Made by a program: the position numbers and the translations under genes
In this document: one piece after another, positions 448 to 64,000 of the stretch
Layout of the letters: each line of letters opens with the position of its first letter
How positions within the stretch are numbered: the first letter of the stretch is position 1
Assembly (NCBI GenBank): GCA_024195265.1
Contig: JAJLRJ010000003.1
Coordinates: 31,437,643-31,501,642 of the forward strand
Length of the DNA stretch: 64,000 nt
Origin: Dendrophyllia cribrosa
Taxonomy: Eukaryota; Cnidaria; Anthozoa; Scleractinia; Dendrophylliidae
Direction of reading: 5' to 3'
The notes under the pieces: generated by a model
Database searches by the model: none
What the model was told of the DNA's origin: nothing
What the model saw: only the letters and a program-made list of their open reading frames with translations

Positions 448-2616
448 ATGCATTGCACTTGAGGATAAAGCTTATCCAATCATCACTCCTCGGCCTCTTT
501 GTATTTGGCCGACGATCTAAAAATGTCACGCACGATAAGATGAATTCGATGATTGAAAAATGACCTTATCCTTCAGTGTCACGCAACATACAGCATAATC
601 GCACGCGAGCTCCACGTACCTCGTGCCACGTTGTAGTGTTTAGCCTCGGGCCGATTGATATGGTGCAACGTCAGTTTTGAAAAAGCTGTATCATACGTAT
701 GTGCTTACGAAACAAACGTTTTGTAAGCAAGCACGTCCTTGCTTACGACTCAGTTCCGAGTGTTTCCGAGTGTGCAATTGGAAAACTTCGAAGTCGAATG
801 CGATAGTTTTAAAGAGACGTTGTACCATTTAAATCGACCCCACCTTATCTGGGTTGCTGTACTGTGTCACGCTTCTCCACCACCCTCGCAGATTCTGGGT
901 CATGGTCTCCTCCTGGGGAACTGTTGTCCTGGCGACGAGTTGGAGTGGCTCCCAAAGATGAAGTCCGGCCGGCCAAAGAAATATTATTTTACTATTAAAA
1001 GCTGTTTCAACTAACATTGATTTCTAGCTTATTAACTGACGCGATGGGCGGAAAAACAGTTCAACAATTTTCTTCAGTTCCACAGCTACTCTTTATGCAG
1101 ATGGGGTTCGAATTGCCTTGCTCTATCGCAATGAATGGAAGACCTAGGTTTACTTTTGTCACCAAGAGGATTTTATCATATTTCAAGAGTCTAATGTGGA
1201 AATCATCAACGTTAGTTGAAACCCCTGACTGTCTCTAGTTATTGCTATATAATGTCTACCCTGACTGCTCTTTTACCTAATCAGGTCATCACCTTCAAGT
1301 TTCCTTTTTTGAGGTGCTAAGCGGAAATTCTTGTTTCAACTTTAGCAGAATTATGAAACTATGGCTAGAACTAAAACATGACGTCGAAATTTTCGGTCAT
1401 CATCCTCTGGTTTGATTCATCGGACTCTTCCATCGCCGCAATGGCAGCTACCTCACCTTCATTATGCTCTTTATTTTCCTATGGCGTTCGACGATCTTTG
1501 TTCTTCTTTCTTCGGCCGGCCACTGTACCACGGACGGGCGCAGTCTTTAACAGGCCGCTTGGCGAACGACAAGAGATGACAACAGTATAAAACTGTTGAC
1601 AACTTCTGCAGAACGAAGCAACCGTTATCTGTGGGCTGTCGATGTGAAGACTACCTGCGCCTACCATTTGTAGACGATCTGCGCCTGCGTGGTGCAATGC
1701 AGGGCTTCCTGACAAGAGATTTCTCCCGCGAGGCAAGATTAACAAGAAGACAAACCGATCGTCTAAATGTCAACTATGCCATAGCGACAAAATCCTCCCA
1801 TTTATCTGTTACCTCGTAAAACTATCTTTAGCCTGTGAAGCGTGCGGAAGAGTAATATTGGGTGCGAATTCAGGGACGCACGCGCAGAGGATAGTTGTAT
1901 CCTCCGCACGCCCGTCCCCGAAATATAATCGCGCCTTATATTAATCTTTCGCCTACTACGCAGACTACTAATTCTATGAAAAGCTTATCATCTTGATATT
2001 GATCCTCCGGCGATGGTTTTGCGTCGTAGGTTGGTCTCGAAGGCTGCCAACGTTTACAATTTGTAAACGATCTATCCTAGGGTGTGTGCATTGTCCCATT
2101 TCGTCCCGCAGTAAACCTGCGATAAGGCATTAGCTCTTCACGGGAAGGACCGCTTGATCGCATGTTACTCTGCTTGTATGACTTAAATCCTGTTTACTGA
2201 ACTACGCTGACAAATTGAGTAGTATGCAAATACCTCATCGGAAATTTTCTCTTGAAAGGCGCTAGAATTTCGTAAGATATGCCACGACGTTCAATTGTGT
2301 CGTTTGTCAAAATGTTTTGCAAGTCAAATCCAACTCGATCACAGAGGTAAAAGCAAACCCAAATTTGCGAGGCTAAACAAACTATCTTCCTGTAACCACA
2401 GAAACCACTAAACTTCTAAGGAGTGGCCAAATAAGGTCTCCTCACAACAGTTGAATGGCCTGTAGTCTCTAGTTTCTGAAATTATGTCTTAACTTAAATA
2501 ATGTCTGGTTGAACCTTACGAGTGAAAGCCTCACTTGCCCAGCGCGTGGACTGTCAAGTGAAGTGTAATAGATAAATAATTAAATTGAGTGTAACTAAGC
2601 GGGAGATAGCGCAGAA

Positions 2617-2665
2617 GACGACGATGACGACGATGACCGGACGACGATGACCCGACGACGACGAC
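2617..2665 (+). repeat. GACGAY trinucleotide microsatellite
   Basis: Impure GAC/GAT trinucleotide array, interrupted twice by CCG-containing triplets. Confidence 0.75.
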
Positions 2666-3314
2666 AAATTTTATCCGAAGAAAAGTCGAAAAGCCGAAAT
2701 CGAGTCGAACCTAATTCGAAAAAAGGCCGACCTAACCGTATTACCCGCTAAGAAACCCAAAAAAATGGGAGGGGGAGGGAAAAAAACCACACCAACCCTG
2801 GGGTTCCCATTAGTTTATCTAATTACAACTACGTTGAATCGAATTAGAAGTCCGGGGACTTCTGGCCGAACGTGTGTGCATGAGGTATGTTTTGAAAGGT
2901 TCATCCAGAGATCTATTTACCCACCAAACCCAACCCATAAAGAATATTACTGACCAATGAGGCATCTCTTATTAGAATTTTTTCTCGGAGATGTATGTCC
3001 TGTGCTGACTTGAACCTGCTCCAATGGAACGGTGGAGGAAGGTGGTCTGGTCTCATCCGCCGGAAGGCTGAACATTAGTTGTCCTGTGGTTGAGAACTGG
3101 CAGCTGAAATGGTTCAATAAAACATTTTGCGAAGGATTCCCTGAGGAAAAATGAAAATAAGATTTAAAAATTGAAGAATGGTATAACTTACAAACTCGAA
3201 CACAGGGTGCAATAAAAGTTTGCGCGCAATAATGTTGCACAGGTATGTGTCCATGCACAATGACAAGAGAGCTACATGAAACCGTTTTAAAAGTAAACAC
3301 ATGCTTCTGAGCGG

Positions 3315-3415
3315 TTTTAAAATACCCGGCCACTGACATATCCCTAAACGTTTGGTAGAACGAGGCACACGAAAACAAAAGAAAGCATTCATATTCAATG
3401 ACATGCAAGGCCAAG
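3315..3415 (+). repeat. Dispersed short repeat, copy related to 40031-40145
   Basis: Shares the segments AATACCCGGCCACT, CATATCCCTAAACG, GAACGA.GCA and TTCAATGA.ATGCAA in the same order with 40031-40145. The second copy shows that this is a small foldback element; here the right end has diverged. Confidence 0.55.
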
Positions 3416-4065
3416 GGGGAGAAGAGAGGACACCACACACCCCCGTTAAGGTTTTTCTTCGATTTTCTTCAAGAACATTTATTGTTAGCACATGCCATTT
3501 TCTTCGTTTATCCTTGAGACACATTTTGGTAAGGTTGAGACAATCGGTTGCTATGGTGACGAGATATGACATAATTTGCACAATTATAATAGAAATTAGA
3601 ATATCAATACGTGTTTCACATTTTTCCGGTGAAAAAAAAACATAAAACGCAACCAAAAGCAGCAAATTGTTAATTCTGTCATATTTTACAGCTCGAGCAA
3701 AAAAGTACTTTTCCCCATAAATTTGATCTTTTAGTAAAATGCAAGATGATGACAAATTGCCAGCAGCGCCGTAAACTATATTGTTTACTTTATCTGGTAC
3801 AGCACATCACTAAGGATGCCTGTAGGTGCCATCCGACATCCGAGTTGCGGACATTAAGGTCTTCGAAAGTAACGACTTTAAAATCCAGGACAGTACCCGA
3901 CAGTATATTTTTAGATCATTACCCTCTGCTGGAAGGAACTCTGTAGTTTTTAGTGATTTTAAAACTCAGGTGAGGAAGTATCTGATAAATAGGGCTAATG
4001 TACGTTTAATTTTTATATATTGTTAAAAGTAGATTATTTTTAACTTTTGTCAGCAGCATCCCTAA

Positions 4066-4215
4066 CACTCTTAAACTCCAATTGTTATTTTAAGAACCAA
4101 ATTGTTAAAACAAATCGACAGGTAAGAACTCTTTTGTTGATTTAATTTTAAGTTCTTACCTGTCGATTTGTTTTAACAATTTGGTTCTTAAAATAACAAT
4201 TCGAGTTTAAGAGTG
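4066..4215. mobile_element. 150-bp foldback MITE with TAA duplication
   Basis: Two ~62-base arms that are almost perfect reverse complements (start CACTCTTAAACT, end AGTTTAAGAGTG) around a ~22-base loop. TAA flanks both ends (4063-4065 and 4216-4218). A 3-bp TWA duplication would fit PIF/Harbinger-type elements, but there is no coding capacity to confirm this. Confidence 0.75.
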
Positions 4216-4317
4216 TAATATTGTACATAGCTAAAGTTTTTTACTATTATTATATTTTAAATATTAATGTACATTTTACAGATGAATGGCCACCTCTCAG
4301 TGGAAATACTGTAATAG

Positions 4318-4319
<2 letters not shown>

Positions 4320-4358
<39 letters not shown>
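4320..4358 (+). repeat. (ATT)n microsatellite
   Basis: About 13 uninterrupted ATT triplets. Confidence 0.9.
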
Positions 4359-10001: not shown

Positions 10002-13000
10002 TCAATTGGCTTGCTCTTCGTCAGCAATATCTTGCATTCGTACTCTCGCTGCAATTGCTGCGTCACGGGTGGGTCTGAACTCTCGAGCCTCCGGGTTTAG
10101 CTGTTCTTGGGGTGTCAAGGGCGTCCGGTCGCACGACAGTTCCAAGGGGTAGAGATGGTTTACTGCTCTCTCTAGGTGACCACCTCCCGCCCGCAGCTGA
10201 ACTCCTCGAACCACTCCATCCCGGCCAGTGTACAGCTTCTCAACTATCCCCAGTGGCCATTTCCCTCTGTTTCGATCTTCCGAATGAACTATGACAACAT
10301 CACCAACAGTCAAAGTGCTTCCCTTCCCGTCATGTTTCAAATTATGTCGCTCGCGAAGGCCTCTGAGGTACTCCTTGGTCCACCTGCTCCACATGGCGTC
10401 TTTACACCTTTTCATGTACTTGGCCCGTTTACGTAGATCACGAAGCTCACGATGTGGCTCTTTCTCTGGTAGGATGGTGGTACCGATGAACTGCATACTG
10501 TTAGGTGTGATCAAAGGTAATTGAATATCATTCTCCACGTAACCTAGAGGGCGGTTATTTAAGGTCACTTCCACATCCAGGAGTACGTCTTCAAGTTCCG
10601 TCCAGCTGAGGCGACCATTTCCAATCGTTTTGTTAAGGGAACGCTTTACAAGACCAACTAACCGCTCGAACTGACCGCCCCACCATGGGGCGCGGCTCAA
10701 ATTGAATTGCCACTTGATGTTCTCAGTCGACAGGTAATGGTGAAACTGCTCATCTTGCTGCACTTGTTTTAGCCAACTTGCTGCAGCGACAAACGTTTTG
10801 GCGTTGTCCGAATAAATCTTCTCTGGCCTTCCTTTCCTGGCTATCAGGCGCTTTAGACTTCTTAGAAACTCGCTAGTCTCCATGCTCTTGCTAAGCTCCA
10901 AATAGAGTGCTCGCGTGAGGCTGCATGCGTAAAGGATTATGTATGCCTTTCCTTCTTTCTTCTGGGTCACACGGTACTTAATAGGTCCCGCGAAGTCAAC
11001 TCCGACAACTTGAAAGGCGCGATTTCCTTCGGTTCTGTCTCGCGGTAGGTTTCCAGGTGGTGGTCTAGCAGCGGCCCTGACTTGGAAACGGCGACAACCA
11101 TAACACTGCTTAATCACTTTTTTGGTCAGACGCCTGAGCCTCGGCACCCAATAACGCTCTCTGATGCGCGCCATTGTCAAACCGACTCCCCCATGCAAAG
11201 TACGACGATGGGCGTCTTCAACGAGTTTCACTGTGTAGGGGTGCTTGTCAGGCAGATAGACTGGGTAGTGTCCCTGAACTCGACCTCGACACACGAGAAT
11301 CCCTTGCTCATTCTCTTTTAAACCCAGCCTTTGTCGGTCTTCTGTCACTTCATCGCTTTGAGTCTCTTGAGCGCGCTTGGTCCAAAACAGGTGTTGTTTA
11401 TTGATCTCGTCGGTTGTCAGTGGACCCGCCATTCTTTCTTGTTTCTTTAGGCGTGAATTCCGTATGAATCTCGCGGCCCAGGCGACAATTCTTAACGTCT
11501 TCGTCAGGCTAAACTTCCCCAGCAGATCATCAAGGCAGTCAGTTGATGCAGTGACTCCATTAAAAAACTCTTTGGTAACTTTAGCCTCTGTTTGGCTCTC
11601 AGGAGTGGCGCTTGTCACGATGTCTGTAGGCCACTTGTCTTTGTCTGAAAGCCACTCCGGTCCTTGCCACCACAGCTTGCTGTCATCGACTTGCCCTCCT
11701 CGACTTCCCAGGTCTGCCGGATTTTCCTTGGTGGGTACATGGCGCCAATTGATCTCTGAATGCCCTTGTATTTTCATCACTCTGTTTGCTACGAACTGTT
11801 TGTACTCGCCGCCACCCTTTATCCAATGGAGAGCCACTGAGTTGTCCAGCCATCCATAGCTCTGTTTCACAGGAAAACCCTCAAGCGCGCTTCCTACGTT
11901 TGTGATAAGATTTGCTGCCATATGCGCCGACACCAGCTCTAATCGAGGAATGGTGAGCCCCTGCTTCGCTAGTCGAGCTCTTGCAGTAACCAATCCCTGG
12001 CTCACACCCGATGGCTGTCTCACAACTGCATGCACTGTTGCACACACTCCGTTCTTACTTGCATCCCCGAAGGCGTGAAGCTCGATTTCTTCAATCTGCT
12101 CTTGCGCACACGTTAAGGCCCTTGCTACCATGACCTCGGCTGGTAACTCCTTCTTCCATCGTGTCCACTGGTTTGCTAGCTGTGGGGGTAGCGGTGCATC
12201 CCAGGCCACTTTCACGTTACATACATCTCTGTAGATGAACTTTCCCTTTATAGTTAAAGGCGCCACAAGACCAAGGGGATCGTAGATTTTTGCTAGATTA
12301 CGCAACAATGTTCTTTTGGACGCGACTACATCATTTTGAGGCAAAACGACACTGATCTGGTCTTCCTGTTTGTCCCACGGGAGTCCAAGCAAACCACCGG
12401 TCTTTGCTTTTGATTGGCCGAGCTGCTGTTTGGCAAACGTGCCCTCGTCTTCGACTCCTCTCTCACTCTCTTCTAACTCGGCAACATTCGAGTGCCACTT
12501 GTGCAGTGTGAACTTAGCATCCGCGAAGATTTTAATAGCTCCCTCTTTCAGCTGCTGCGCCTCAGGTACTGTTGGTTTCCCGCTGATCAGATCGTCTACA
12601 TACAGGCTTTTGCGCAGTTCAGCAACAAGTTGTGGCATGCGAGTTTCCCAGGTTTCAAGATGACACTCTAGCACTCCCCCAAGGAGAAAGGGAGAAGGCA
12701 CAAGACCGAACAGCGCTCGCGTAAATCTCAACACTTCTACTTCAGAATGTTCGCTGGTCTTCCAATGAAACCTGAGTGCATCTCTCTCTTCCTTCTTAAT
12801 GCGCACCTGAAGAAAGGCCTGTTGCAGGTCCCCAGTGATAAGGACTGGATGGAAACGCATGCGTACTAAAACACTCCACAGGTGATTCTGAAGCGGCGGC
12901 CCGGCATACAGACAATCATTTAAGCTTGGAACTTGGGGGTTCGCGCGAGATGAGGCGTCATAAACGATCCTTAGCTTTGTAGATTCAGCTCCCATACGAA

Positions 13001-15191
13001 TCACCGGCTTGTGGGGTATGTAGAATTCTTTTCCCTGCGGCGGATCACTTGCGACTTCTACTATTCCCTCGGACTTCTGTTTTTCGATGATCTCTGCATA
13101 ACTCTCGGTCACATCCAAGCGTCGAAGTCTGTTCTGGAGGTTGCTGAGCCTTCGCAAACTGACTGCTTTATTGTTCGGTAAAGGCGGGTGGTTACCTTTC
13201 CATGGCAGCGAGGCTTCATACCAGCCTTCGGGATGTCGCACCAATTGCTCTCGGAACTCTGCGTAGACTGCGCGCTGATCATGTTCTGGGGTGTCTTCAA
13301 GCCCTAAAACGTCTAGCCGACAAAGCTCTGCATAGTCCACGTGACTCGTTTGGGTCAGCAGCATATTTCCGTGGTCAATCTCAGTTCCCGGTGACATAAT
13401 AGTCCACCCCAACTTAGTCTTCTCTGCCACTGGTTCCCCTGGGAGTCCAACGCGCGGCCGTTCGGACGTCTTGATCGCTGCATACTCGCTCGCCCCTAAT
13501 ATCAGATGTACTGGGAGGTGTGGCTTAGGGTCGCAGTCCGTCATCTCAACTCCCTTTAGATGAGCGTACGAATCGATAATCTTTTGATAGTGTGGGTTAT
13601 CGATCATCAGCAATTCCCGTCTTTCAACCTTGGTAACATCAACGTTTAATTCTTCACTGCCATCAGTTGAGCGTACTTTGATTGTAGAAAGTTCTACTTC
13701 ACGTGTGGTCGATCCCAGCATCATTTCTATTCGACGAACTTCTTTTGCACGAGAGCGCTTAGGAAGTTTCTCCAACAGCGCGGCCGAAGCATATGAACTC
13801 CCAGCTCCTGTATCTAGAAGTGCACGACACAGTACTCCCTCCACGCTTACTTTCACAACAGGATAAACAACACGCCCTTTGTTCCCGGTAGCTGTCAACA
13901 ATTGGTCTCCTTGGTTGCAAATCGATGTATGATGTTTCTGTCTGCACTTCTGGCAACGCATTTTACTCTTGCATTCGGCAGCATGATGTTTCGGCCCAGT
14001 GCAATTAAAGCACATTCGTTTCCGCGCGAGCATTCTCTTCCTCTCGTCCATCGTGGATACGCGCGTGCAATCCCGCGAGATGTGATTGGCGTCATCACAG
14101 TAAACACAAAGGCGCTGGTTTCTATCTTCTGCGTGGTACAGGCGAGATTTGTTCTCAGGGCGCTTAGGGAGCGTAGCCTTGTTTGCGATGTCATTTTCTT
14201 CAGTCGCTGGGTTTACATCTCTCCATTTCTTCAGGGCCTGGGTTAAACGAGGTAAATCCCAGTCTTGCCAGTTTTCTTGTCCCCTGACCAGATCGGCTTT
14301 GATTCCTTTTAATTTATCCAGCACGCTTCTTGTCATTCCGTTTACTCTTTCGATTTTTCCAAGCGTTTCCAGTGATTGGACGTTAAACAGCAGGGTTTTA
14401 TAAAAGGAATTAACTTTGTTTGGGTCTGCGCTTGTCACGGTGGGGAGTTGTAGAATGTTATTAACGTAGGCGTTGACAATTTCACTCGTTTTCCCATATT
14501 CTTCTTTGATAATGTTTTTCGCTCTTTCATATCCTTCTGTATTAAGCGGCAAACCATCGATATCTGCCCTGACTTTGGGCTCCATTAGCTCTTTCAAGTA
14601 GGCGAATTTTGTCACAGGCGCTAATTCTGTTTTGTCGATTTCGGCCTCGAATTTATTCCAGAACGGCGGCCAATTTGCAAGTGTTCCGTCGAATTTTGTG
14701 ATAGAAAGCTTTGGCAGCTTTGCGGTCACGGTTTTCTTCGCATTTTGTTCTTGCTGACTGGCTTCTACGGCCTTTTGAAATTTCACTTGTTGATCCAACA
14801 GCTCACGCTCATGGCTCATTCGCTCTTCGTGTTTCATCTTCGCGAGGGCCATTTCCTTTTTATCAAATTCCATCTTGTCTGCCAGTCGCTTGTCGTCTTC
14901 CATTTTCCCCACTAGTTGTCTTATTGCTAAGGCCCTTTCGTCCGCTTCCTTTAGAAATTTGTCGTGCTCTTTCGCCCAAGTGCTGACCTGTTCCTCTGAT
15001 TCACCATTTGTAAATTTCAGCTCGATAATGGATTCTTTCACGGTGTGAGCGGCCTGCAATTTAGACATTAATAGTGCCTCGTGTCTCGATATCGCCTCTG
15101 CGTTTTGGGAAGCGATCACTTCATCATTCTTTGCCAGAGAGAATTTTAGAGACAGAATCTTTCCGTTAAATTCTTTCGTACGTTCCTCCAT
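10002..15191 (-). CDS. BEL/Pao gag-pol polyprotein
   Basis: A single 1,729-residue polyprotein that would supply capsid-like Gag, protease, reverse transcriptase, RNase H and integrase for copying the element through an RNA intermediate. Domains in order: a charged coiled-coil-rich Gag part (residues about 1-160) and a Gag core; zinc knuckle-type motifs at about 362-430 (CVYC..., CFNC...); aspartic protease with DTGAG at about 460; reverse transcriptase with YVDDL at about 862; RNase H starting near 1036 (AFGDAS); an integrase HHCC zinc region at about 1318-1370; and a DDE core with GVDFAGP near 1395, SDNAKTF near 1460 and the Glu in GGQFE near 1507. The order PR-RT-RH-IN and the YVDD box fit the BEL/Pao group. 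It starts with an ATG 163 bp after the 5' LTR. No stop or frameshift is present. There is no envelope gene. Confidence 0.95.
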   Translation of the reverse strand: MEERTKEFNGKILSLKFSLAKNDEVIASQNAEAISRHEALLMSKLQAAHTVKESIIELKFTNGESEEQVSTWAKEHDKFLKEADERALAIRQLVGKMEDDKRLADKMEFDKKEMALAKMKHEERMSHERELLDQQVKFQKAVEASQQEQNAKKTVTAKLPKLSITKFDGTLANWPPFWNKFEAEIDKTELAPVTKFAYLKELMEPKVRADIDGLPLNTEGYERAKNIIKEEYGKTSEIVNAYVNNILQLPTVTSADPNKVNSFYKTLLFNVQSLETLGKIERVNGMTRSVLDKLKGIKADLVRGQENWQDWDLPRLTQALKKWRDVNPATEENDIANKATLPKRPENKSRLYHAEDRNQRLCVYCDDANHISRDCTRVSTMDERKRMLARKRMCFNCTGPKHHAAECKSKMRCQKCRQKHHTSICNQGDQLLTATGNKGRVVYPVVKVSVEGVLCRALLDTGAGSSYASAALLEKLPKRSRAKEVRRIEMMLGSTTREVELSTIKVRSTDGSEELNVDVTKVERRELLMIDNPHYQKIIDSYAHLKGVEMTDCDPKPHLPVHLILGASEYAAIKTSERPRVGLPGEPVAEKTKLGWTIMSPGTEIDHGNMLLTQTSHVDYAELCRLDVLGLEDTPEHDQRAVYAEFREQLVRHPEGWYEASLPWKGNHPPLPNNKAVSLRRLSNLQNRLRRLDVTESYAEIIEKQKSEGIVEVASDPPQGKEFYIPHKPVIRMGAESTKLRIVYDASSRANPQVPSLNDCLYAGPPLQNHLWSVLVRMRFHPVLITGDLQQAFLQVRIKKEERDALRFHWKTSEHSEVEVLRFTRALFGLVPSPFLLGGVLECHLETWETRMPQLVAELRKSLYVDDLISGKPTVPEAQQLKEGAIKIFADAKFTLHKWHSNVAELEESERGVEDEGTFAKQQLGQSKAKTGGLLGLPWDKQEDQISVVLPQNDVVASKRTLLRNLAKIYDPLGLVAPLTIKGKFIYRDVCNVKVAWDAPLPPQLANQWTRWKKELPAEVMVARALTCAQEQIEEIELHAFGDASKNGVCATVHAVVRQPSGVSQGLVTARARLAKQGLTIPRLELVSAHMAANLITNVGSALEGFPVKQSYGWLDNSVALHWIKGGGEYKQFVANRVMKIQGHSEINWRHVPTKENPADLGSRGGQVDDSKLWWQGPEWLSDKDKWPTDIVTSATPESQTEAKVTKEFFNGVTASTDCLDDLLGKFSLTKTLRIVAWAARFIRNSRLKKQERMAGPLTTDEINKQHLFWTKRAQETQSDEVTEDRQRLGLKENEQGILVCRGRVQGHYPVYLPDKHPYTVKLVEDAHRRTLHGGVGLTMARIRERYWVPRLRRLTKKVIKQCYGCRRFQVRAAARPPPGNLPRDRTEGNRAFQVVGVDFAGPIKYRVTQKKEGKAYIILYACSLTRALYLELSKSMETSEFLRSLKRLIARKGRPEKIYSDNAKTFVAAASWLKQVQQDEQFHHYLSTENIKWQFNLSRAPWWGGQFERLVGLVKRSLNKTIGNGRLSWTELEDVLLDVEVTLNNRPLGYVENDIQLPLITPNSMQFIGTTILPEKEPHRELRDLRKRAKYMKRCKDAMWSRWTKEYLRGLRERHNLKHDGKGSTLTVGDVVIVHSEDRNRGKWPLGIVEKLYTGRDGVVRGVQLRAGGGHLERAVNHLYPLELSCDRTPLTPQEQLNPEAREFRPTRDAAIAARVRMQDIADEEQAN

Positions 15192-15330
15192 CGCGTTGGC
15201 CCTTATTAGCTTTAGCGTTGTTTTGGCCGATTTGCCAAGTCTGCCAAATCCCAGCGAATCCCTTGATCACGTAGCTATGTACTTGATTTTTCGCAAATCC
15301 CTTGCTCTTGTTCGAGCCAAAATCCCAATA

Positions 15331-16068: not shown

Positions 16069-17607
16069 TCAGTTGTTGACAAACCATTTCTGGCCAACTT
16101 TGTCAGCGGAGTGGCCACGATCTACATGCGCACCAACGGTCCAGCGAGACATCTCTCTCAAGCCAGTTGTGGACACGATAGTGAACCACCAGTATGCATT
16201 CGGCTGAATCATCACCTCATTTGGATTAGGCGCTGTCATCATGCTGACATGGCTAACAGCTTGGGCAGCCACATGGTTTCCATCTTGAGACACCGCCAGA
16301 TTTTGAGCCTTGTATGCGTAGCCTTGCTTTTCATTTCCTTGTACACCGCGTACATCTGCTCCAGCTCTGACAGCTTGCACAAGATTACCTCTGCTTCCAC
16401 TCAGCACGTTACCGGAGGGGTCATTCGACAGGATATGGGTCCAGTTCCGGGTATCTACGAACCACCTCACCTTCAGCTTATTTATAGAATCACCACGATG
16501 CTTGTGCTCTCCCACATTGTACCTTGTGGCGCGAACGGTTCCTGTCGTGGAAACCATCAACCAGTACCAGTAGGCATCATTCTGAAATCCAGTCAATCCA
16601 CTCTTGCTGACATGTTTGATTGCCTGAGCTGTCACGTGACCATTGCGTACAGACAGATTATCAGCCTCCGCAGTGTAGTAGTTCCACTGAGGGATCTGGA
16701 AACGAACTCGGTGGCCAGACATCAAAGCCAAAATGAGTGCTTGGCGCGTACCAGACAGCTGTGTTCCATTGGCATGATGGGAAAAGACTTCTTTCCAGCA
16801 GCCATCCGCAAACCACTCAATTGCCACGGTGTCTTTGGTGTGACCTCGTGATTGGTGGATCCCAACAGTCCAGCGTGACATGTCACGTAATCCTCGTGTA
16901 GTCATCACAATAAACCACCAATACGCATTACTCTGAAACTGGATGAGGTTGCCGCTTAAGCTGATGCTTATGTGGTCTAAACTTTGTCCAGAAACGTACT
17001 TGATACCATTGGTGTTGATTGCAACGTTCTGGAGAGGAAAGGAGTAACTCTTGGTGCTGACACATCGGATTTCCTGTCCATATTTAACACTGCTTACCAG
17101 GTCATTCAAGTTACCTTGCACTTTATTGCCATTCGCCAGATGTGAGTACGATGGCGTTGGAAGGAACGCTGATGTCTGCACGTACCATTTGATGCTCGTC
17201 TTGATGCTGTTAGTACTACGGTGTGTATTGGAGCCCACGTTGTACCTGGTCATCTGCATCAATCCGTCGGTTGACACAATGACCCACCACCAGTAGGCAT
17301 TGTCCTGAAACTTGTCCCATGAAGCTTTGCTGACGTGCTGCAGCAGTTGAGCGAACACGTGACCTGCGTGGACATGGACGTTGTCCGCCTCCGTGCTGTA
17401 AGACGTTCCAATGACCACACGGATACGTGCACCTGATAACACGGCAGATATCAAGCCGTATTCCCACCCAGCTATCGCGTTGCCATTTTCATCGTGGTGA
17501 TACGCCAGTTGCCATGGTAATGAACATGGACTGCATGGAGTTTCCTCTTTGTTGCGAGAAAAACAAAATGGTTGAGAATTAGCATTTTTTTTTACAAAAA
17601 AATACAT
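16069..17607 (-). CDS. Protein of four tandem ~115-residue repeats, family not recognised
   Basis: A continuous frame of 512 codons from the ATG at 17607. The frame stays open upstream to a stop at 17686 without another ATG, so a 5' exon or a later start is possible (acceptor candidates near 17550). After a short Cys-containing lead, four copies of one domain follow (about 33-143, 153-267, 273-385 and 390-511 of the 512-aa form). Each begins near H.NGN..G, contains a HVS motif and NAYWWF or a variant, then M.RW.VG or T.R.NVG, H..RG, and ends IKWFV. Repeats 1 and 3 share TRYNVG and EADN; repeats 2 and 4 share MSRWTVG. That pattern suggests duplication of a two-repeat unit. I recall similar unnamed sequences in other marine invertebrates but no function. 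There is no obvious signal peptide or membrane segment in this exon. A tryptophan-rich, beta-type lectin-like binding role is only a guess. Confidence 0.75.
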   Translation of the reverse strand: MYFFVKKNANSQPFCFSRNKEETPCSPCSLPWQLAYHHDENGNAIAGWEYGLISAVLSGARIRVVIGTSYSTEADNVHVHAGHVFAQLLQHVSKASWDKFQDNAYWWWVIVSTDGLMQMTRYNVGSNTHRSTNSIKTSIKWYVQTSAFLPTPSYSHLANGNKVQGNLNDLVSSVKYGQEIRCVSTKSYSFPLQNVAINTNGIKYVSGQSLDHISISLSGNLIQFQSNAYWWFIVMTTRGLRDMSRWTVGIHQSRGHTKDTVAIEWFADGCWKEVFSHHANGTQLSGTRQALILALMSGHRVRFQIPQWNYYTAEADNLSVRNGHVTAQAIKHVSKSGLTGFQNDAYWYWLMVSTTGTVRATRYNVGEHKHRGDSINKLKVRWFVDTRNWTHILSNDPSGNVLSGSRGNLVQAVRAGADVRGVQGNEKQGYAYKAQNLAVSQDGNHVAAQAVSHVSMMTAPNPNEVMIQPNAYWWFTIVSTTGLREMSRWTVGAHVDRGHSADKVGQKWFVNN

Positions 17608-17689
17608 TTTAGAAAAGGGTGTTGGCTTTGGACACGCAAACCACTGTGGTACTACTTCGGTAAACAATGATGTGTTGATGCAAAATTAA

Positions 17690-43500: not shown

Positions 43501-46500
43501 TACAATGTAATAAGCTGTTGCCTGTACATCATAGGAGTGGATCCAGGCAATTCAGAAACAGGTGGCCGAGGGTGGCTGTGGCAGTTATAGCAAGAGCACA
43601 ATCTCACTCCGTAGCGGTAACAACCTTAATAAACAAAAACAAAAATTCCAAACCTGCCTACAGTAAACTGAGTGACTTAATGCAGTAGAGACCATTTTCT
43701 GGTGTCTGTCTTTGAGGGTGTCTTAGAGAGTTGACCATATTAACGCTAACATGTAAGACATCGAGTGGTCATATAAATGGATGAGATTAATTTATTTGCA
43801 TAGGTCTGCATTCTCATTTGACTTAATTGGCTTAACTTAGAAGTATCTTGAAGCCCTATTGTTATAAAATTGCATCAAATCAGTTCATCAGTTCATTTAT
43901 TCCATTACTTTGCATCTTACAGTGTATTGAAGATGACTGTGTCTTCAGATACTTACAGATGCGGCATTATTTTCCTTTACATAAGTGACCCGACAGTGTA
44001 TTGCTTTGCTAACTAGAGCCAGATATCCAAGTTGTAATAGAATCTCAGTGTCATAATCATGTTTTATTTTTACAGATTGTGAGGACCTTTAAAGTTGAAA
44101 CAAAAAGAGTTTCGAAGACAATAGCTAAAAGAAAGGTGGACATTATTTTGGAAATTCTAGCTTTTATGTTATATATACATGTATGAAATGAGTCATAATG
44201 TGAACTGCAGGTGAACAAATTAAGGTGATTCCCAGAAATGAAAATAGATAAACAATTTTCTTAAAACTTTTCCTGATTGTTCCCTAAAAAATACAATAAA
44301 ACACACAGGTCCCCGTGCTCATGAATAAGATGTGATGGACTAAAGTTACGCTATTTATCCCTGTAGTATTAGCTACATGTACACACCCTGTACATGCCTC
44401 ATGCACATGTTTATTTTATCAGTTCACATTATAAGGTAGCTGAAAGCAAACTACATTGTACATGTACAGTACCGCTCGCGTGTATTGCAGCACCTACACG
44501 CGCGTGAAATGCGTGTAAAGTCCGTGTAGTACACGCATTTTACACGAATTTGACGCGCGTGTACACGCGTGTAATAGAAAAGCCTAATTACACGTGTACG
44601 CGTGTATTCCCTTTTTTTTAAAAATGCGTGTATTTTGTGATTCAAATGCGTGTAGTTTGTCAAACAAGAATTCGAGAAGCGACTACATACCCAACGGGAG
44701 GAAGCGAAATCACAACACCGCGCAAATGGCGGATCCAATATTGTTTATTATGGACTCGAGTATCAATGAAAAATAATACTACTTCATGAAATTGTTTTAA
44801 AAGTCAAACTAAGATGAATTCCTTCCGAACTAAATGATACCAAAGATGGGCGAACGTATTTGACTCGACAAGGCTAGAAAGTATCAAGCAGTTCGACTGC
44901 CTGGACTGCTGTAATGTCCGTGTTTCGGCCTGCCAACAGATCAGGACAGATAGCGCCCAAACCGCGACGGTAACGTCTTCAGTTTGGACAGACCACTTTG
45001 AAGCTAATTGTTCCTCGGCAAAAACTCCGTAGCGTAGCCATATCGATTCGCTACAAAGTCGTTTTGCTAAAACATTCAACATTCGAAGATGTTGTTTTTG
45101 AGCTTACATAAATAAAGGCGACTGCGATGTTGTCATCCGTCCGACTCAAAGTACATGTAAGCTTAAATTTCAAACGAGGAGTCAAATAAACAGAGGATCA
45201 TACGATCTTTTTTGCCTGATCATTTTTAAGTTCATCCAATATAAATTTCAATTGTGGAGTAAATTTCAAGTGTAAAATCTGTGCAAATGTCGCAAACACC
45301 TAAAAACAAGGACGGTAGATTTTGGTCACGTGCTAGGCAACGAGATCTGCTAACAGATCGAATTTCATTTCAAGTATCGAATACGTTTCTGGTTTAGGAC
45401 GTTATTATTTATGTCAATAATTTCTGATAGTCTGCAGATTTTTTACACATTTAAGGATAAATATGCTTTAAGAATTCACGAAAAACGAAAGCCAATTTTG
45501 TGTTTATTTAGTTTGAATTCCGAGACAGTCGACGGCGCCGCTAGTTTAGCACAACAGGGATATATTCAGCAGACTTCCGTTAACGGACCTTTCGGTCTCA
45601 GATCGGCAGTAAACCGCTTGCCGAAAATTCTTGTCTGTATAATAAATACAGCAACGTTCAAGACAGGAAGTACATTGTAAGAAATCGAATTCAAAACTGA
45701 TGATTTAAAATACAAATGGAGTCGCCACGAAGTATGTGAACGACACGTTAAATGTTTTCGCATATTTTACGCACAGTCGACGGACAGCCCGAGGACGGAG
45801 TAGCCTCCCACGCAGTCGTTTTTAGGGGTATCGTGTTTCACTCCCCCCCCACAAACGCCTGCTCAACCGTGACCAACATTCCTTTGCCCCGCTTAGCCAA
45901 TCACATTGTACCTACTTAATCTGGTAGGTTGACCTTGACCGCACGACGCTTTTCGCGGGACGAGATCAAAACAACATGGCGGAGAGGAGTGATCTTGATA
46001 AAGCGGTAAGCACTGTGTGCTCCAAGTTTAAGATCTCTCGCTTGAATTTATTTCAGATGAAAGTAACTTCCGAATTTGTAAAGGGAAAAAGCGATATATT
46101 CGTTAATTTACCGACTGGCTACGGTAAATCGCTTGTATATCAAGCTTTGCCTTCAATCTTCGATAGTCTCACCGATTCTTTGGGTCACGTTGTGGTCGTT
46201 GTGTCTCCTCTTATACATTTGATGAGGGACCAAGTCCAATCATTACGAAGTATTGGCATATCCGCCGCTAGTCTGAGCGATTTGGAGTTAGAAGAGGCGG
46301 AAAAAGTGGAAAAAGCAGGCTTTTCGGTTGTGTTTGGCTCTCCAGAGTCTTGGCTGAAAAACGAAAGATGGAGGGAGGTTTTGTTAAGTCCCATCTACGC
46401 GGAAAAGTTATTTTGCATTGCAGTTGACGAGGCTCATGTTATAAAGCAATGGTAAGTTCTAGCTGACTGAAGAACGATTAGAAAGAATTTCGTTTGTATT

Positions 46501-49500
46501 GAGGTGTTCGAGTTTAAGATCCTTGATTGAAAAGTTAAACAGTTGAAGCTCATCAACTGCAATTTGGAATTTGTACGTGTACAATTGTAAATTATAAATC
46601 TATAAATTCAGTTTGCTTAGTATTATATAATGTCAAAGTCCAAGCTTACTCAAATACACAGCACAAATTCAAAAATTCACCAGCATTATGGTCTTCATCT
46701 GCGTATAGGCAGTCATGTACAGGAGACAAAACAGGTTTTTGGTGAATATTTATTATTTCACAGACATATTTGCACTGCAGTTCTCTCAAGGCATCCATAA
46801 TTTACTAAAATAGCTGGTATAATAATTTTGGCTGCCAACATTCATTTTGCCTACCTTCTTCTCAGGGGAACATCTATAAATAACAAGATGGCAGCCTTTC
46901 GTTTAGTGTATGCAGACTTACATGAACTGAGAACTCTTGCTCCATCAGTGAAAATGATGGCTCTTACTGCAACAGCCATAGAAGAAACAAAAAAGACCAT
47001 CATCGATGTTCTTAGAATGACAAATGTGTGTGAAGTTGCTGAAAGTCCGAACAAAGGCAACATAACCTATGTTGTAAGTTACATGCCCAATGATAGTGAG
47101 GTTCAGGACTACTTCAATTGGATTGTTGAAGAGATTAAACAAGGAAGTTCTGAGAAAACAATCATTTATTGTCAGACCATAAAACAGTGCTCACTTATTT
47201 ATGGCACGCTAAAATCAATGCTAGGTCAGTGCATGTACGAAACAAGTTCTAAATGCCCTGTCTTAGAGATGCTACACTCGTGCACACCAGATGACAATAA
47301 AGAAGCAGTATTAAAATCATTTGGCAAAGAAGATGGACCCATCCTAGTTCTGGTTGCTACTATAGCATTTGGGATGGGGGTTGATTGCAAAGCTGTACAC
47401 AGAACTATTCATTTTGGACCTTCAAAAAATGTGGAGGCATTTATCCAGGAGACGGGACGTGCTGGGCGTGATGGCAAGGCAAGTTTTTCCTATCTAGTTT
47501 ACAAAGGTTTGATGCTAAATCATGTTGAGAGGGACATTAAAGAGGACATCAAAACAAAAGACTGCAGAAGAAAAACTCTACTTAAACATTTTGGGATTAA
47601 GGATTTTAAAATTCCTGGTCCCCTTCACACTTGCTGTGATAATTGTGCCAATAGATGTAATTGCAACACTGAAGAATGCAGTAATTACACTTTGTTTGTG
47701 GTTGATGACAATGTTCCTCTTGATTCCCGCCCATTACAACAGAAAAGGCAAGTCAGCGACTCGCAGAGAAAACATGTGAAAAGTGAATTAATTAAGTACC
47801 GCAAGTCACTTGTTATAACATTGATAAGAAAGTCTGCCCATGGTCATGTGAAGAGCTTAACAAATTTGCATACTCTACTTTGTTTTTCTGAGATACAGAT
47901 TGAACAAGTTGTCAGTAACTGTGAGACAATCTTTTGTTTAGAGGATGTCATGAAAACTGTTGAAATCTGGGACATGTGTCATGCGAAAATAATTCTGAAT
48001 GTGCTACAACATGTTTTTGGTGATATTGCCACAAGTGTTGACAATAAAGCAAATGGTACAGAGGGTGAGAGCAATGACGAACTTGATGATGATGAATTAC
48101 TTGGGGAGTGGGCTGCACTTGCTGAAGATGAGGAGCTCTTAAATCTGCTGACAGACAGCTTTTCTTTTCTGAAATGGACAGCACCTATCAGGATGCAACA
48201 CAGCAATCAATGGATTGTTCTGATGTATCTCCAGTGGCCCTTGCATCACTAAAAAATGTAAACATTGACTAAAAATATTCTTATACAAAGTATTTATTTA
48301 ATTTGTTTGTGACATGGGCACTATGGGACTACCCATAGAAAGTAACGAATTAAGTCAAGAAAGCAGGTGAAATTACAAGTCAAGACTGCTTCTCATAATA
48401 GTATTATTGATTATTTATGCCATGTTTTGGTTATCAACTTCTGTGATTTAATAATCATTATTGTTTCTCACTTGATTTAAAAGTGGATATAAAGATAGGT
48501 CATGGTACTTTTTAGCAGTTTCCCATTCCATTTTATCATTACATGAGTTAACAGATTATTAATTTAACAGAACACAAGTTTGAACAAGGTCATTGTATTG
48601 CCAGAAAATATGCATACCTCTAGTGAATGGTTTGTTCTCACATACACATTAGGAAACCTGTGAATGTATATTTTTCATGCTAAAAAGTAGCCTTTGAAAA
48701 CAAATCTCTTTCAAATGACCTACATTGCAAAGGTTATGATATTATCTGGCATTGCACAATGCCTTGTTTGCCGACATCCGTACATTTATTTGTGTTGGTA
48801 CTCATGTTTATTATTTAAACTGAACACTTAAGGGGTCTATGATTTATTTATAAACCATAATAAATATCTAAAATGAGACAAACACTAACCCTGTGGTCAA
48901 AATCCCCCTGTCTCCCCCCCTAAAAAAAAAACCAATAAAATTAGAATCATTAGAATGAGATTTCCTATCAATTGCACCCTTAAACATTGTGTTACATTGC
49001 AAAGTTCCACACAAAGTTCCACACATAGTGAATAGCTAGCTGAATTAATAGTTGCCATATGAGGAAGAGGGGAATTTATCGCCCCAAAAGTGTCATCTTG
49101 CCCCTAAACCATTTTGCATGTTCCTCTTGTGTTTGTTGATCCATTTGAACATTGATGACATGTCAAGGCTTCTAAAGGGATCCCTCTCAAAGCCCCTGAA
49201 ACAGACATAGCTTCTTGAGTCACACTGTTGAAAAATTAAGTTGGAAACACACTTGTCCAGCAGGACAGAAAGATATCCCTATTTTGTGCACACAGTAGTC
49301 TCGGTAATTGTTTCGGAAGTCTTCCTATGGTTCGTTGTTTTCTGTTTGGACACTGGAGTTGACGTTAACAATGGAGCGCTGAAGGCTTGTCGTAAGAGTT
49401 CATCACCCAAGTATTGTGGCGATATCCATGCTACAGGATTTCCGAAAAATACAGCTGGGCGATTATAAGAAGTACAAGTGGAAGCAGAGTACGAGGCGGT

Positions 49501-52500
49501 GGTTGAGGCTGACGATGAGTCCGTGAACTTGAGAGATTTTGGCGCTAAAGCTTGTTTTGTTGTAGTTCAAAGTGTGATATTTTCATCTACGCTTTTGTCA
49601 ACTTGATCGGCTCTTTGCCGTTTCTCCCTTCGCTTGATCGACTCGTAAGCACTACAGATCTCTTCTTTGACACTTTTTAAATTATTTTTTGCTTTTTCAA
49701 TGCGCTGAAGTCTCTTGTAACAACGAGCGTTGCAAACAAACAATTCGGATCCACAGTTGCGGTAAATGTTAATGTTCTCGCCGATTGCCGATTCGATCAG
49801 GCGAGGAAGATCAACAGCACTTCTCCCAAAAATTTTTACTCTTCCAGCAGATGCCTGAGTCAAAGTGTCGCACAAAAAGCACTTGAATTGGCAATCAATA
49901 ATTTTTTTCGGGGTTTCAGGCATCGTAACACGCGAACACGCCATAATCAAGCAACTTCACAGTGCCGCATCTTGAAAATTCGCGGGAAATTATAAAACGA
50001 TTATTTTGATTGGTCATCGACAAACAATGCCTCGATGGTGATTGGCTAGATTGTCTGACAAGTAAAACAATGGCAAAGGAATGTTGGTCACGGTTGAGCA
50101 GGCGTTTGTGGGGGGGAGTGAAACATGATACCCCTAAAAACGACTGCGTGGGAGGCTAAGGACGGAGCCGCTTGTTTAGCACAGGGATACATTGAGCAAA
50201 GACTTTGCTTTGCGTTAACGAAAGTTTATCCATCGGTAAACCGCTTGCCGAAAATACAGGAACGTTCACGACAGATAGTACATTGTAAGAAATCGAATTC
50301 AAAATGAAAACGGAGTCGCCACGAAGTACGCGAACGATACGGTAAATGTTTTGTCCGCTTTTCACGCACACTTAACGGCGCCGCTTGTTTAGCACAATAG
50401 GGATATATTGAGCAAATAGATGAGTTAACGAAACTTTATCTATCGGTAAACAGCTTGCCGAAAATTCGTGTCTGTAAAATAAATACAGCAACGTTCACGA
50501 CAGATAGTACATTGTAAACGGAGTGGCCACGAAGTATGCGAATGATACGGTCTGTACGGTAAATGTTTTCTCCTCTTTTCACGCACTAACATTGTGGTGA
50601 TTTGAAGTTGAAGGATTTCGTGTAATTTTACACGCAATTTCATATCCACTGCGTGTAGTTTGTTACACGCAATTTCATATCCACTATGTGTAGTTTGTTA
50701 CACGCAATTTCATATCCACTGCGTGTAGCTTGCCTGTTACACGCGCGTCAAATGCGTGTAAACTGAGTGTATTACACGCGCTTCACGCGCGTGTAGTGCT
50801 GCAATACACGCGAGCGGTACTGTACATGTATAAGTTAAAATTTAAAAATTTATTGGACAGTATATTAAGCAACTGACCATAAGAAACAGCCTCAAACAGC
50901 ATTGACTCAAATGCATGCATGATTCTAAGGTTGATAACTTTTTTGCTGACAAAGAAATGATTTTGAACTGTTTTAATGCAAACAAGATGATTTTAGCACA
51001 AAAAAGATATAATAAAAAAGTTATGTGTAGGTCACCTTGCACTTTTTGGTAAACTACTGTACATGTAATACTTAGTTTAAAGGAAACTACAGTACATTGT
51101 TTTGTACTATGCACATGCTTGTACTCGCACTATTGATTAAAAAAATATGCATTTATTGTACATGTACATGTAGTAGTACTGTACAACGCAATACTAAGGA
51201 GTCACTGTAAAAAAAAATATTTGAGGAATTTTAATAATTAATTTTTCGATATTTGACCTTGTGTGGGTCAATCACAACTTTGTTGAAACATTTCAGCTAT
51301 GGAGAAAGTTTGGAGATGCGAAGAATGATGGTCCTGGACCAAACCCATCCACAACTACCGTCACTGATGACGTGTTTCTTATACTCACCACGAATAAGGA
51401 GGTAGCTACACTGTACATGTACTTCAAATCTCATTACTTATTTTCACACTTTTTGTATAATTCTATTTGTGGGAATTGGTTTCTCATTCAATATTGTATG
51501 TTACACTTTTGATAAAAGAGTGGATGAATTATTGATATACATGTATGTACATGTACTAGTAATTAGACTGAGTGGAGTACAATTTAGGGAGTAATTGGAT
51601 GAATAATTTCAAATCGGCCTGGCATGTTGCAAGAAGATGATTTAAAATTATGAGCACGGAGTTCAATTTATTTCTAATTATGTACATGTAATCGCACGAA
51701 TAACAAAATTCAAGATTAAAAAGTCATTGTGGACTTTTTTGTGATCAAAACGTCAAGAATATTTTCCATTAAATTTGAAACCTGGAGGGAAATGGCAAAA
51801 AACAAAAAAACAAATAATTGGATATGATTAAGAAGGTACATGTAATACATGTACATGTAGGTCTGTGGAGATGTGAAATAATATTTCTCTTTGAGTTTTC
51901 TGACAACTCAATAGTGAGATACAGTGTATTGAGTCAACAGCAACAGTTAATATGCAGTACTTTTCTGTGGTGCTGTTTATTATGCCATACAAGGTGGTTC
52001 TAACGTAAATGAAATCCTAAAGTGTTACCATTCAAATGAAAGCTATTGTGCAGTACTTCCCTGTGATGCTGATTATAATGCTGTACAAGGTGGTTCTAAC
52101 TTCTGAGTCGGTGGATAAAAATCTAAAGTGTGACTATTCCCAGGGGGGTGGGGGGGGGGGGGGGGGGGGGAGGGGGAATAGGGTGCTAAGGTGCTCAGTC
52201 CTAAATAGAGTATCCTTTTTGATGTTGTAATCCTTGGACAGTTTTCCTTTAAATTGTAGTAGCTAACTTACAGTACAAGTACCTAAACACCCAGCTAAAT
52301 GATAAAGAATATGGTCTGTTAAAACTGAACTACTCGTCTAAACTTCCCATGTACCAAAAAGAAATAAAATCGGTGTCATTTTTCTGTTTTGGGCCTTAAA
52401 AAGGTATCAATTTTTGATTTTCTACCTTTAAATAGGGTCAGGATTTAAGAACTTTCATGGCAAATGCCTATCCTACATGTCAATTGAAATTGACGCAGGT

Positions 52501-62238: not shown

Positions 62239-63126
62239 TTACAACTCTGAGTTAAATATCTGCCTGAAAGGCATTTCTTTGTAAACAAAAATATCCACTA
62301 GAATCTTCAAGCCGCTTGCTAGAATGACGAGCGCGAGCGTAATGGCAACTAAATGGTCCAAATACCACAAGTGCGAGATTTGATCCAGGATCAATGAACT
62401 GATAAAAAGACCAAATAAAATCCCACTGGTCACCGCGTCATCAATGCACAGCGAGATAAGCACAGGGCTCTTGTTTCGCTTGGCTATACAGCACTCTAAA
62501 ACGGCAAGAACACAGTAAATGAAACTAAAAGCTAACAGAACTGGCCATGCGATATCGGAGTGCTTCGGTTTGTTTTTGTCTACCAGATGGAAGGTCGACA
62601 CAGCTATTGTGATAGTACCATCTATTGTAAAGGCAACACCAAACGCAATCGATCCATATTTCTCTCTCGCCAACCCAACTTTGCCTTCCCCGTCATCGCT
62701 AAACCGCCAAATTACAACAGAAGCGCTAAATACGGCCAAAAGTGAATCAAGGGCTGATGCGAGGACTGCGGAACTATCCATTGTGGCCGAAGCAAAAAAT
62801 GAAGCTCCACAGAAAATCACCGAAGCGATTAAACTCGCTATTGCAACAGCGAGCGTAGGTCTTCTCCATTTGCGTATTTTGTTGACTTGTGTCACTGTTT
62901 CTTGTTTATTCGTATCTGTATCGTCTGTGGTGAAGGAAACACACGGCGTTTTTTCGACAACACCGTCCTCTACCGCAGGGCTGAGTTCTGCCTTGAAGGT
63001 GGCTGCCAATTTCGGCGAAAGCAGTGGCGACTCTCCCTGGACACGGCGTAAGGTGGGCGATGAAGACGCCTGACCCTTCTCGGGGGTTTGCTCTTTCATT
63101 GCAGACTTACTGCTATCTTTTTCCAT
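62239..63126 (-). CDS. TMEM163: TMEM163-like zinc transporter, single exon
   Basis: 295 residues from a clear ATG to TAA with no intron, close to the usual ~290-aa family length. The N-terminal ~85 residues are hydrophilic, Ser/Thr-rich and cytosolic, followed by a basic patch (IRKWRRP). Six membrane segments are visible at about 91-113, 119-141, 156-178, 192-214, 226-248 and 259-281. Helix 2 carries MDSSAVLASALDSLLAVFSA with Asp117 and Asp127, and helix 5 has a double Asp (229-230). This resembles the cation-diffusion-facilitator metal site known for TMEM163, which effluxes zinc in vesicles and at the plasma membrane. Lack of introns could mean an old retrocopy that stayed functional or normal gene structure in this lineage. 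Confidence 0.88.
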   Translation of the reverse strand: MEKDSSKSAMKEQTPEKGQASSSPTLRRVQGESPLLSPKLAATFKAELSPAVEDGVVEKTPCVSFTTDDTDTNKQETVTQVNKIRKWRRPTLAVAIASLIASVIFCGASFFASATMDSSAVLASALDSLLAVFSASVVIWRFSDDGEGKVGLAREKYGSIAFGVAFTIDGTITIAVSTFHLVDKNKPKHSDIAWPVLLAFSFIYCVLAVLECCIAKRNKSPVLISLCIDDAVTSGILFGLFISSLILDQISHLWYLDHLVAITLALVILASGLKILVDIFVYKEMPFRQIFNSEL

Positions 63127-64000
63127 TGCTCACACATCTTTACGTTAAAAGTAACAGCCTCCTTAAGTGAGTCAGTTTGATGCAGCCCCATTCATTTCTC
63201 ATTTCCATTACATGGTCTTAGTTAAGACCTTTTTGTTAAGCCTATTGTCTTTTTCCGCTTGCAAAATAGGCTTTTCCGAAAACAGCTAACGACAATGATC
63301 ACCGATTAAAATACAAGTGACCGAATCCTTGTAGCTGCATATTTACCAACTCAATAATTCCATTCGTCCGACAATTCTCAAACATGTTTTCACTAAAACT
63401 GACTACCTTGTAAAGCTCGTTGATTCGCAGTGTTGGCACTTTTACATGGGATCAGCTAAAAAATTAATACTCCCCATTTCGGCTCATTTCCATTGCATGG
63501 ATGGATACTCCTTTTAGGACAACAGATTATTGCATCGTTGAAAGTCGCTATTTCAATTTGCTCTTTTACCAGGGAACTCATCAGTCGGGAAGATAATCTC
63601 TACTCTAAGATACAAGTATATACTTCGAGTTAAAGAATGATTTGGCAAAAGACCTGCCATTTTTCTGAAGAATTATTAACGTTGCGGTGGAGACAGGTTT
63701 TCAATTATTATTGATTAAATTTTCACAAATCGACTCGCGCCATTATCCACTCGGACAATAGAAAGAGAACAAACGGATAAGCCGATTGTCTTTACTTTCA
63801 CGCTTCAAAATAAACTTGTCTTAGAACAGCTATCAGTAATGAACACCGACCAAAGGGAAACTGTACGAATCCTTGAAGCTGCTCACACTTGTTTTCGCAG
63901 ATTATTGCATGTAGCACATTTTCTCGTCAATTGTCGTTTGAGTTTGGAAAGTTTTAATACCTAGTCCAGTAGATATTCTATGCAACTTTACATTGACCTT
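63127..64000. other. Upstream region of TMEM163; no gene
   Basis: It contains a diverged ~105-bp direct duplication (about 63245-63350 and 63775-63890; GTGACCGAATCCTTGTAGCT versus CTGTACGAATCCTTGAAGCT). No promoter element can be assigned with confidence. Confidence 0.5.

Follow-up and report, generated by a model that had tools for sequence, protein, structure and literature searches.

The window analyzed here, a stretch of 64,000 nucleotides from the coral Dendrophyllia cribrosa (GCA_024195265.1, contig JAJLRJ010000003.1, positions 31,437,643–31,501,642), contains an element with terminal inverted repeats (TIRs) at 45801–50158 that carries a RecQ-type helicase gene. The observation holds up but is not exceptional: the element is a non-autonomous copy from an AcademH-type family that bears a helicase. 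Very probably, it is an internally deleted AcademH copy of a ~10.1-kb parent and was mobilized in trans. The large DUF6589 protein of the full-length element is most likely a DDE-type transposase, and the core of its gene has been lost from the window copy.

The boundaries of the element were defined by its ends and its target site. The left TIR (88 bp, 45801–45888, + strand) and the right TIR (87 bp, 50072–50158, − strand) pair over 49 nucleotides at 98% complementarity and a further 45 nucleotides at 100%, and they differ by one C in a C-run and one substitution. An exact 9-bp target site duplication (TSD), AGGACGGAG, is located identically on the left (45792–45800) and right (50159–50167) sides. 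The TIRs and the exact TSD bear out the original prediction, which was made from the letters of the window and described a TIR element with firm boundaries, ~87-bp TIRs, and an exact 9-bp duplication. It had also stated that joining the flanks restores a tandem-repeat unit. Without the element, the joined flanks indeed form a stretch that aligns with the next repeat unit through the insertion point (76% over 248 columns), but the units around the site have diverged from one another, and Tandem Repeats Finder listed no ~210-bp array in 44500–51500.

The 627-Mb genome (22 contigs) was searched for further copies. The best 71 of 1005 helicase candidates were scored, giving 77 matches at 53 loci, and nine helicase-bearing copies of the window's family were found among the scored matches. 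The terminal tip TAGCCTCCCACGCAG is common to all nine with at most one mismatch, and each of the eight copies other than the window element has its own exact 9-bp TSD. Four copies (C1, C2, C4, and C12b) are 10,071–10,122 bp long, and two longer ones (C17 and C12a) have further inserts. The short form is present in three copies: the window element, C22 (4362 bp), and C17s, which has an insert of ~12 kb near its left end. Positions 1–865, ~874–3474, and 3491–4358 of the window element match the 10-kb copies, and ~5.3 kb is missing between the last two segments. The junction of this deletion together with its filler (approximately 49273–49290) is found letter for letter in C22 and C17s at different target sites, indicating that the deletion happened once and that its product then moved. 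The copies, their ends, TSDs, and gene content, and this common junction are direct observations. In addition, the match ends at the inserts of ~12 kb in C17s and ~18 kb in C12a show a 5-bp overlap, the pattern expected from a 5-bp duplication.

The part missing from the window corresponds to most of a multi-exon gene that is convergent to the helicase. What remains is the N-terminal part of its exon 1 (49291–49944, − strand) and a C-terminal stub (49096–49272, − strand; codons ~1020–1078 of the search model). Because the short copies keep both remnants, the long form is ancestral. The small convergent cysteine-rich protein of the original prediction is a real frame (49944–49567, − strand) with a stop after ~125 amino acids, which is shared by C22. 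It is, however, not a separate protein but the first ~125 residues of the larger gene (92% identity over codons 1–227). A tandem duplication of ~147 bp covers the start of this exon in C1, C2, C4, and C12b and is absent from the window. Longer copies with a transposase-type gene, which the original prediction had proposed to look for and had itself named as evidence against its reading, were searched for and found. These copies, in which the same TIRs enclose both this gene and the helicase, led us to reject both a helicase carried as chance cargo and a transposase-free mobilization system; the description of the element as non-autonomous was right.

Pieces of the missing gene match Pfam DUF6589 with E values of 7.1e-07 and 2.2e-26, jointly covering profile positions 9–410. 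In an alignment of 14 DUF6589 homologues and the search model (15 rows), conservation in 14 or more rows was seen for 13 acidic columns. Twelve of them (codons 458–959) fall in the part lost from the window, and the remaining one (codon 1019) is at its edge. A TSD of 8–11 bp would fit MuDR, the defining feature of which is a MULE-type (Mutator-like element) transposase domain. At E ≤ 0.1, DUF6589 was the sole Pfam family listed for the transposase exon pieces, and a distant MULE relation is compatible with this result. The structure of a Nematostella DUF6589 homologue was modeled, and a comparison by VIA-align 2 ranked Hermes at the top. Based on this model, we hold with moderate confidence that the homologue resembles DDE transposases.

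The helicase gene consists of two exons (45976–46451 with a GTAAGT donor, and 46866–48252; + strand) separated by a GT-AG intron (46452–46865), in which ~8 bp near 46666–46673 stand in for ~264 bp of the full-length copies. The encoded protein of 620 amino acids matched the Pfam families DEAD and Helicase_C above the cut-off, and RecQ_Zn_bind, with 24.6 bits, fell just short of its cut-off (25). The closest solved sequences were WRN, BLM, and RecQ (E about 1e-33). The gene had been described as an intact-looking RecQ-type helicase of superfamily 2. The RecQ-type assignment is confirmed, but the gene is not fully intact: a T-run near 48160–48172 is one T shorter than in C22, and the last 27 residues are consequently changed (620 versus 627 amino acids). 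The 627-residue frame is present in C1, C2, C12a (read across the insert in its intron), C22, and C17s. It is 624 residues long in C12b, ends prematurely in C4, and is disrupted in C17. Among five copies, the ratio of nonsynonymous to synonymous substitution rates (dN/dS) was 0.27–0.76, with too few substitutions for a test of selection.

Miniature copies of the family were found by searching the genome for the tip pattern with up to three mismatches. This search gave 51 tips, and the reversed pattern used as a control gave none. Eighteen tips belong to the nine copies described above, 24 form 12 close pairs, and nine are single. Twenty of the 21 remaining tip loci were examined, the one left out being a single tip on C3. 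Both tips (at most two mismatches) were present at 16 of the 20 loci, which are 43–143 bp in length, and all 16 (L025–L037, L039, L040, and L042, excluding L038) have an exact 9-bp TSD; no second tip was found within the examined flank at the other four. L030 and L031 have the same TSD and the same length and probably represent one insertion that was duplicated. Since copies down to 43 bp have exact 9-bp TSDs, the helicase gene is not needed in cis, and the family illustrates how little sequence the ends require.

The pairing of the two genes extends beyond the window's family. A second family, of which seven copies were examined and three completed at both ends, is 10.4 kb long and has TIRs of 73–76 bp beginning with TAGCCTCCTTCGCAG and a 9-bp TSD in all three completed copies. 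It contains the same convergent gene pair, with identities of 50–58% (helicase) and 43–68% (transposase) to that of the window's family. Genome-wide, 102 of 208 DUF6589 candidates were scored, giving 102 matches at 90 loci. DUF6589 was located within 12 kb of 44 of the 53 scored helicase loci, on the opposite strand in all 44 and convergently in 43. Three of the nine helicase loci lacking DUF6589 nearby are the short copies. The helicase is a regular component of such elements in the Dendrophyllia cribrosa genome, as seen from this association, which holds for a scored set that is the most query-like and from which host RecQ genes may be missing.

Here, we propose how the window element originated. 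The full-length element (~10.1 kb) would encode the RecQ-type helicase and the large DUF6589 protein convergently. A 5.3-kb deletion with filler DNA would have removed the catalytic core of the transposase, whereas both TIRs, the helicase, and the N-terminal cysteine-rich part were retained. The derivative would then have been mobilized in trans by the transposase of full-length copies, reaching at least three insertion sites. We infer that the DUF6589 protein acts by cut-and-paste, and the helicase may unwind or process transposition intermediates. Several points weigh against this proposal. The structure model is weak (mean predicted local distance difference test score 61, predicted template modeling score 0.46), and residue 421 of the modeled Nematostella protein is Val, whereas the other 13 proteins in the alignment share the presumed catalytic Asp there. 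The VIA-align rows below Hermes mix transposases (IstA, P element, ISCth4, and RAG1) with UvrC, SPARTA, Prp8, and reverse transcriptase chains at similar Z scores. With Foldseek by itself, no PDB entry matched at E ≤ 0.001, and unrelated transporters and synthases are among its top rows. At 43 of the 90 DUF6589 loci, no scored helicase match lies within 12 kb; either DUF6589 also occurs outside helicase-bearing elements, or many of the copies have decayed, or some helicases escaped the search. The movement is deduced from the copies compared, not from observed excision or insertion, and AcademH membership is judged by architecture and TSD rather than by a tree or a sequence comparison with described AcademH transposases. 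What is new here is modest. DUF6589, a Pfam family without a functional name, is linked to helicase-bearing elements as their probable transposase, and the derivative moved while keeping an open helicase frame in two of the three copies. No mention of DUF6589, alone or together with transposase, was found in the literature searched.

The derivative might alternatively be a regulator, in which the family is repressed by the shortened N-terminal piece of the transposase and the helicase is kept as a helper, by analogy with the KP product, which represses P elements. The ~125-residue cysteine-rich frame is still open in the window and C22, as is the 627-residue helicase frame in C22 and C17s. The cysteine-rich frame, however, stops before the deletion junction and was not found in C17s by the motif filter, the C-terminal end of the window helicase is altered, and the few helicase substitutions give no measure of selection. 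We regard such a regulatory role as unlikely, and its specific form, in which the cysteine-rich N terminus would occupy the TIRs as a repressor, the helicase would aid processing, and the derivative would be favored over long copies, as slightly less likely still. Movement driven by the helicase without a transposase, with the transposase gene as a secondary gain, could account for a short derivative lacking the transposase core at three different sites; it is most improbable given the ancestral long form and the 43–143-bp copies, which are too short for either gene and have the same ends and 9-bp TSDs, as mobilization in trans predicts.

Other features of the window were also identified. A BEL/Pao retrotransposon (10002–15266, − strand) has a frame of 1754 amino acids with a Pao-type peptidase, DUF1759, a reverse transcriptase, an integrase zinc-binding domain, and DUF5641. 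A frame of 538 amino acids (16069–17685, − strand) contains several internal repeats of ~100 residues recognized by eye, with the motif NAYWW, and had no Pfam match at E ≤ 0.001. A frame of 296 amino acids (62239–63129, − strand) matches Cation_efflux (E = 5e-8) and is perhaps TMEM163-like.

Among known helicase-bearing elements, Helitrons encode a Pif1-type helicase with an HUH nuclease and have neither a TIR nor a TSD. The window element resembles them in bearing a helicase, but this assignment was rejected because both a TIR and a TSD are present. AcademH reportedly occurs in animals and fungi, judging from the title of a 2020 work by Kojima. A Kolobok origin has hardly any probability. A RecQ helicase accompanies the DDD/E transposase in KolobokH and is also found, on the complementary strand, in one rhodophyte Kolobok, but the Kolobok TSD is TTAA (4 bp), in contrast to the 9 bp here, which vary in sequence between copies, and KolobokH is reported, in the available part of the source, only from fungi (PMC9587614). 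AcademX belongs to the same superfamily (Academ) according to the literature. It has a TSD of 3 or 4 bp and a nuclease but no helicase, as stated in the accessible text of PMC10045372, and was rejected based on the 9-bp TSDs in the window and the other copies. The original prediction had held that known helicase-bearing Academ elements differ from this one. This does not apply to AcademH, which combines a helicase gene with a TSD of 9 or 10 bp according to the accessible text (PMC10045372). In the portion available of PMC10799480, AcademH elements are cited as having a low copy number in fungi. The window element agrees with AcademH in its 9-bp TSD, helicase gene, and TIRs, and it is unlike AcademH in that this copy lacks the transposase core.
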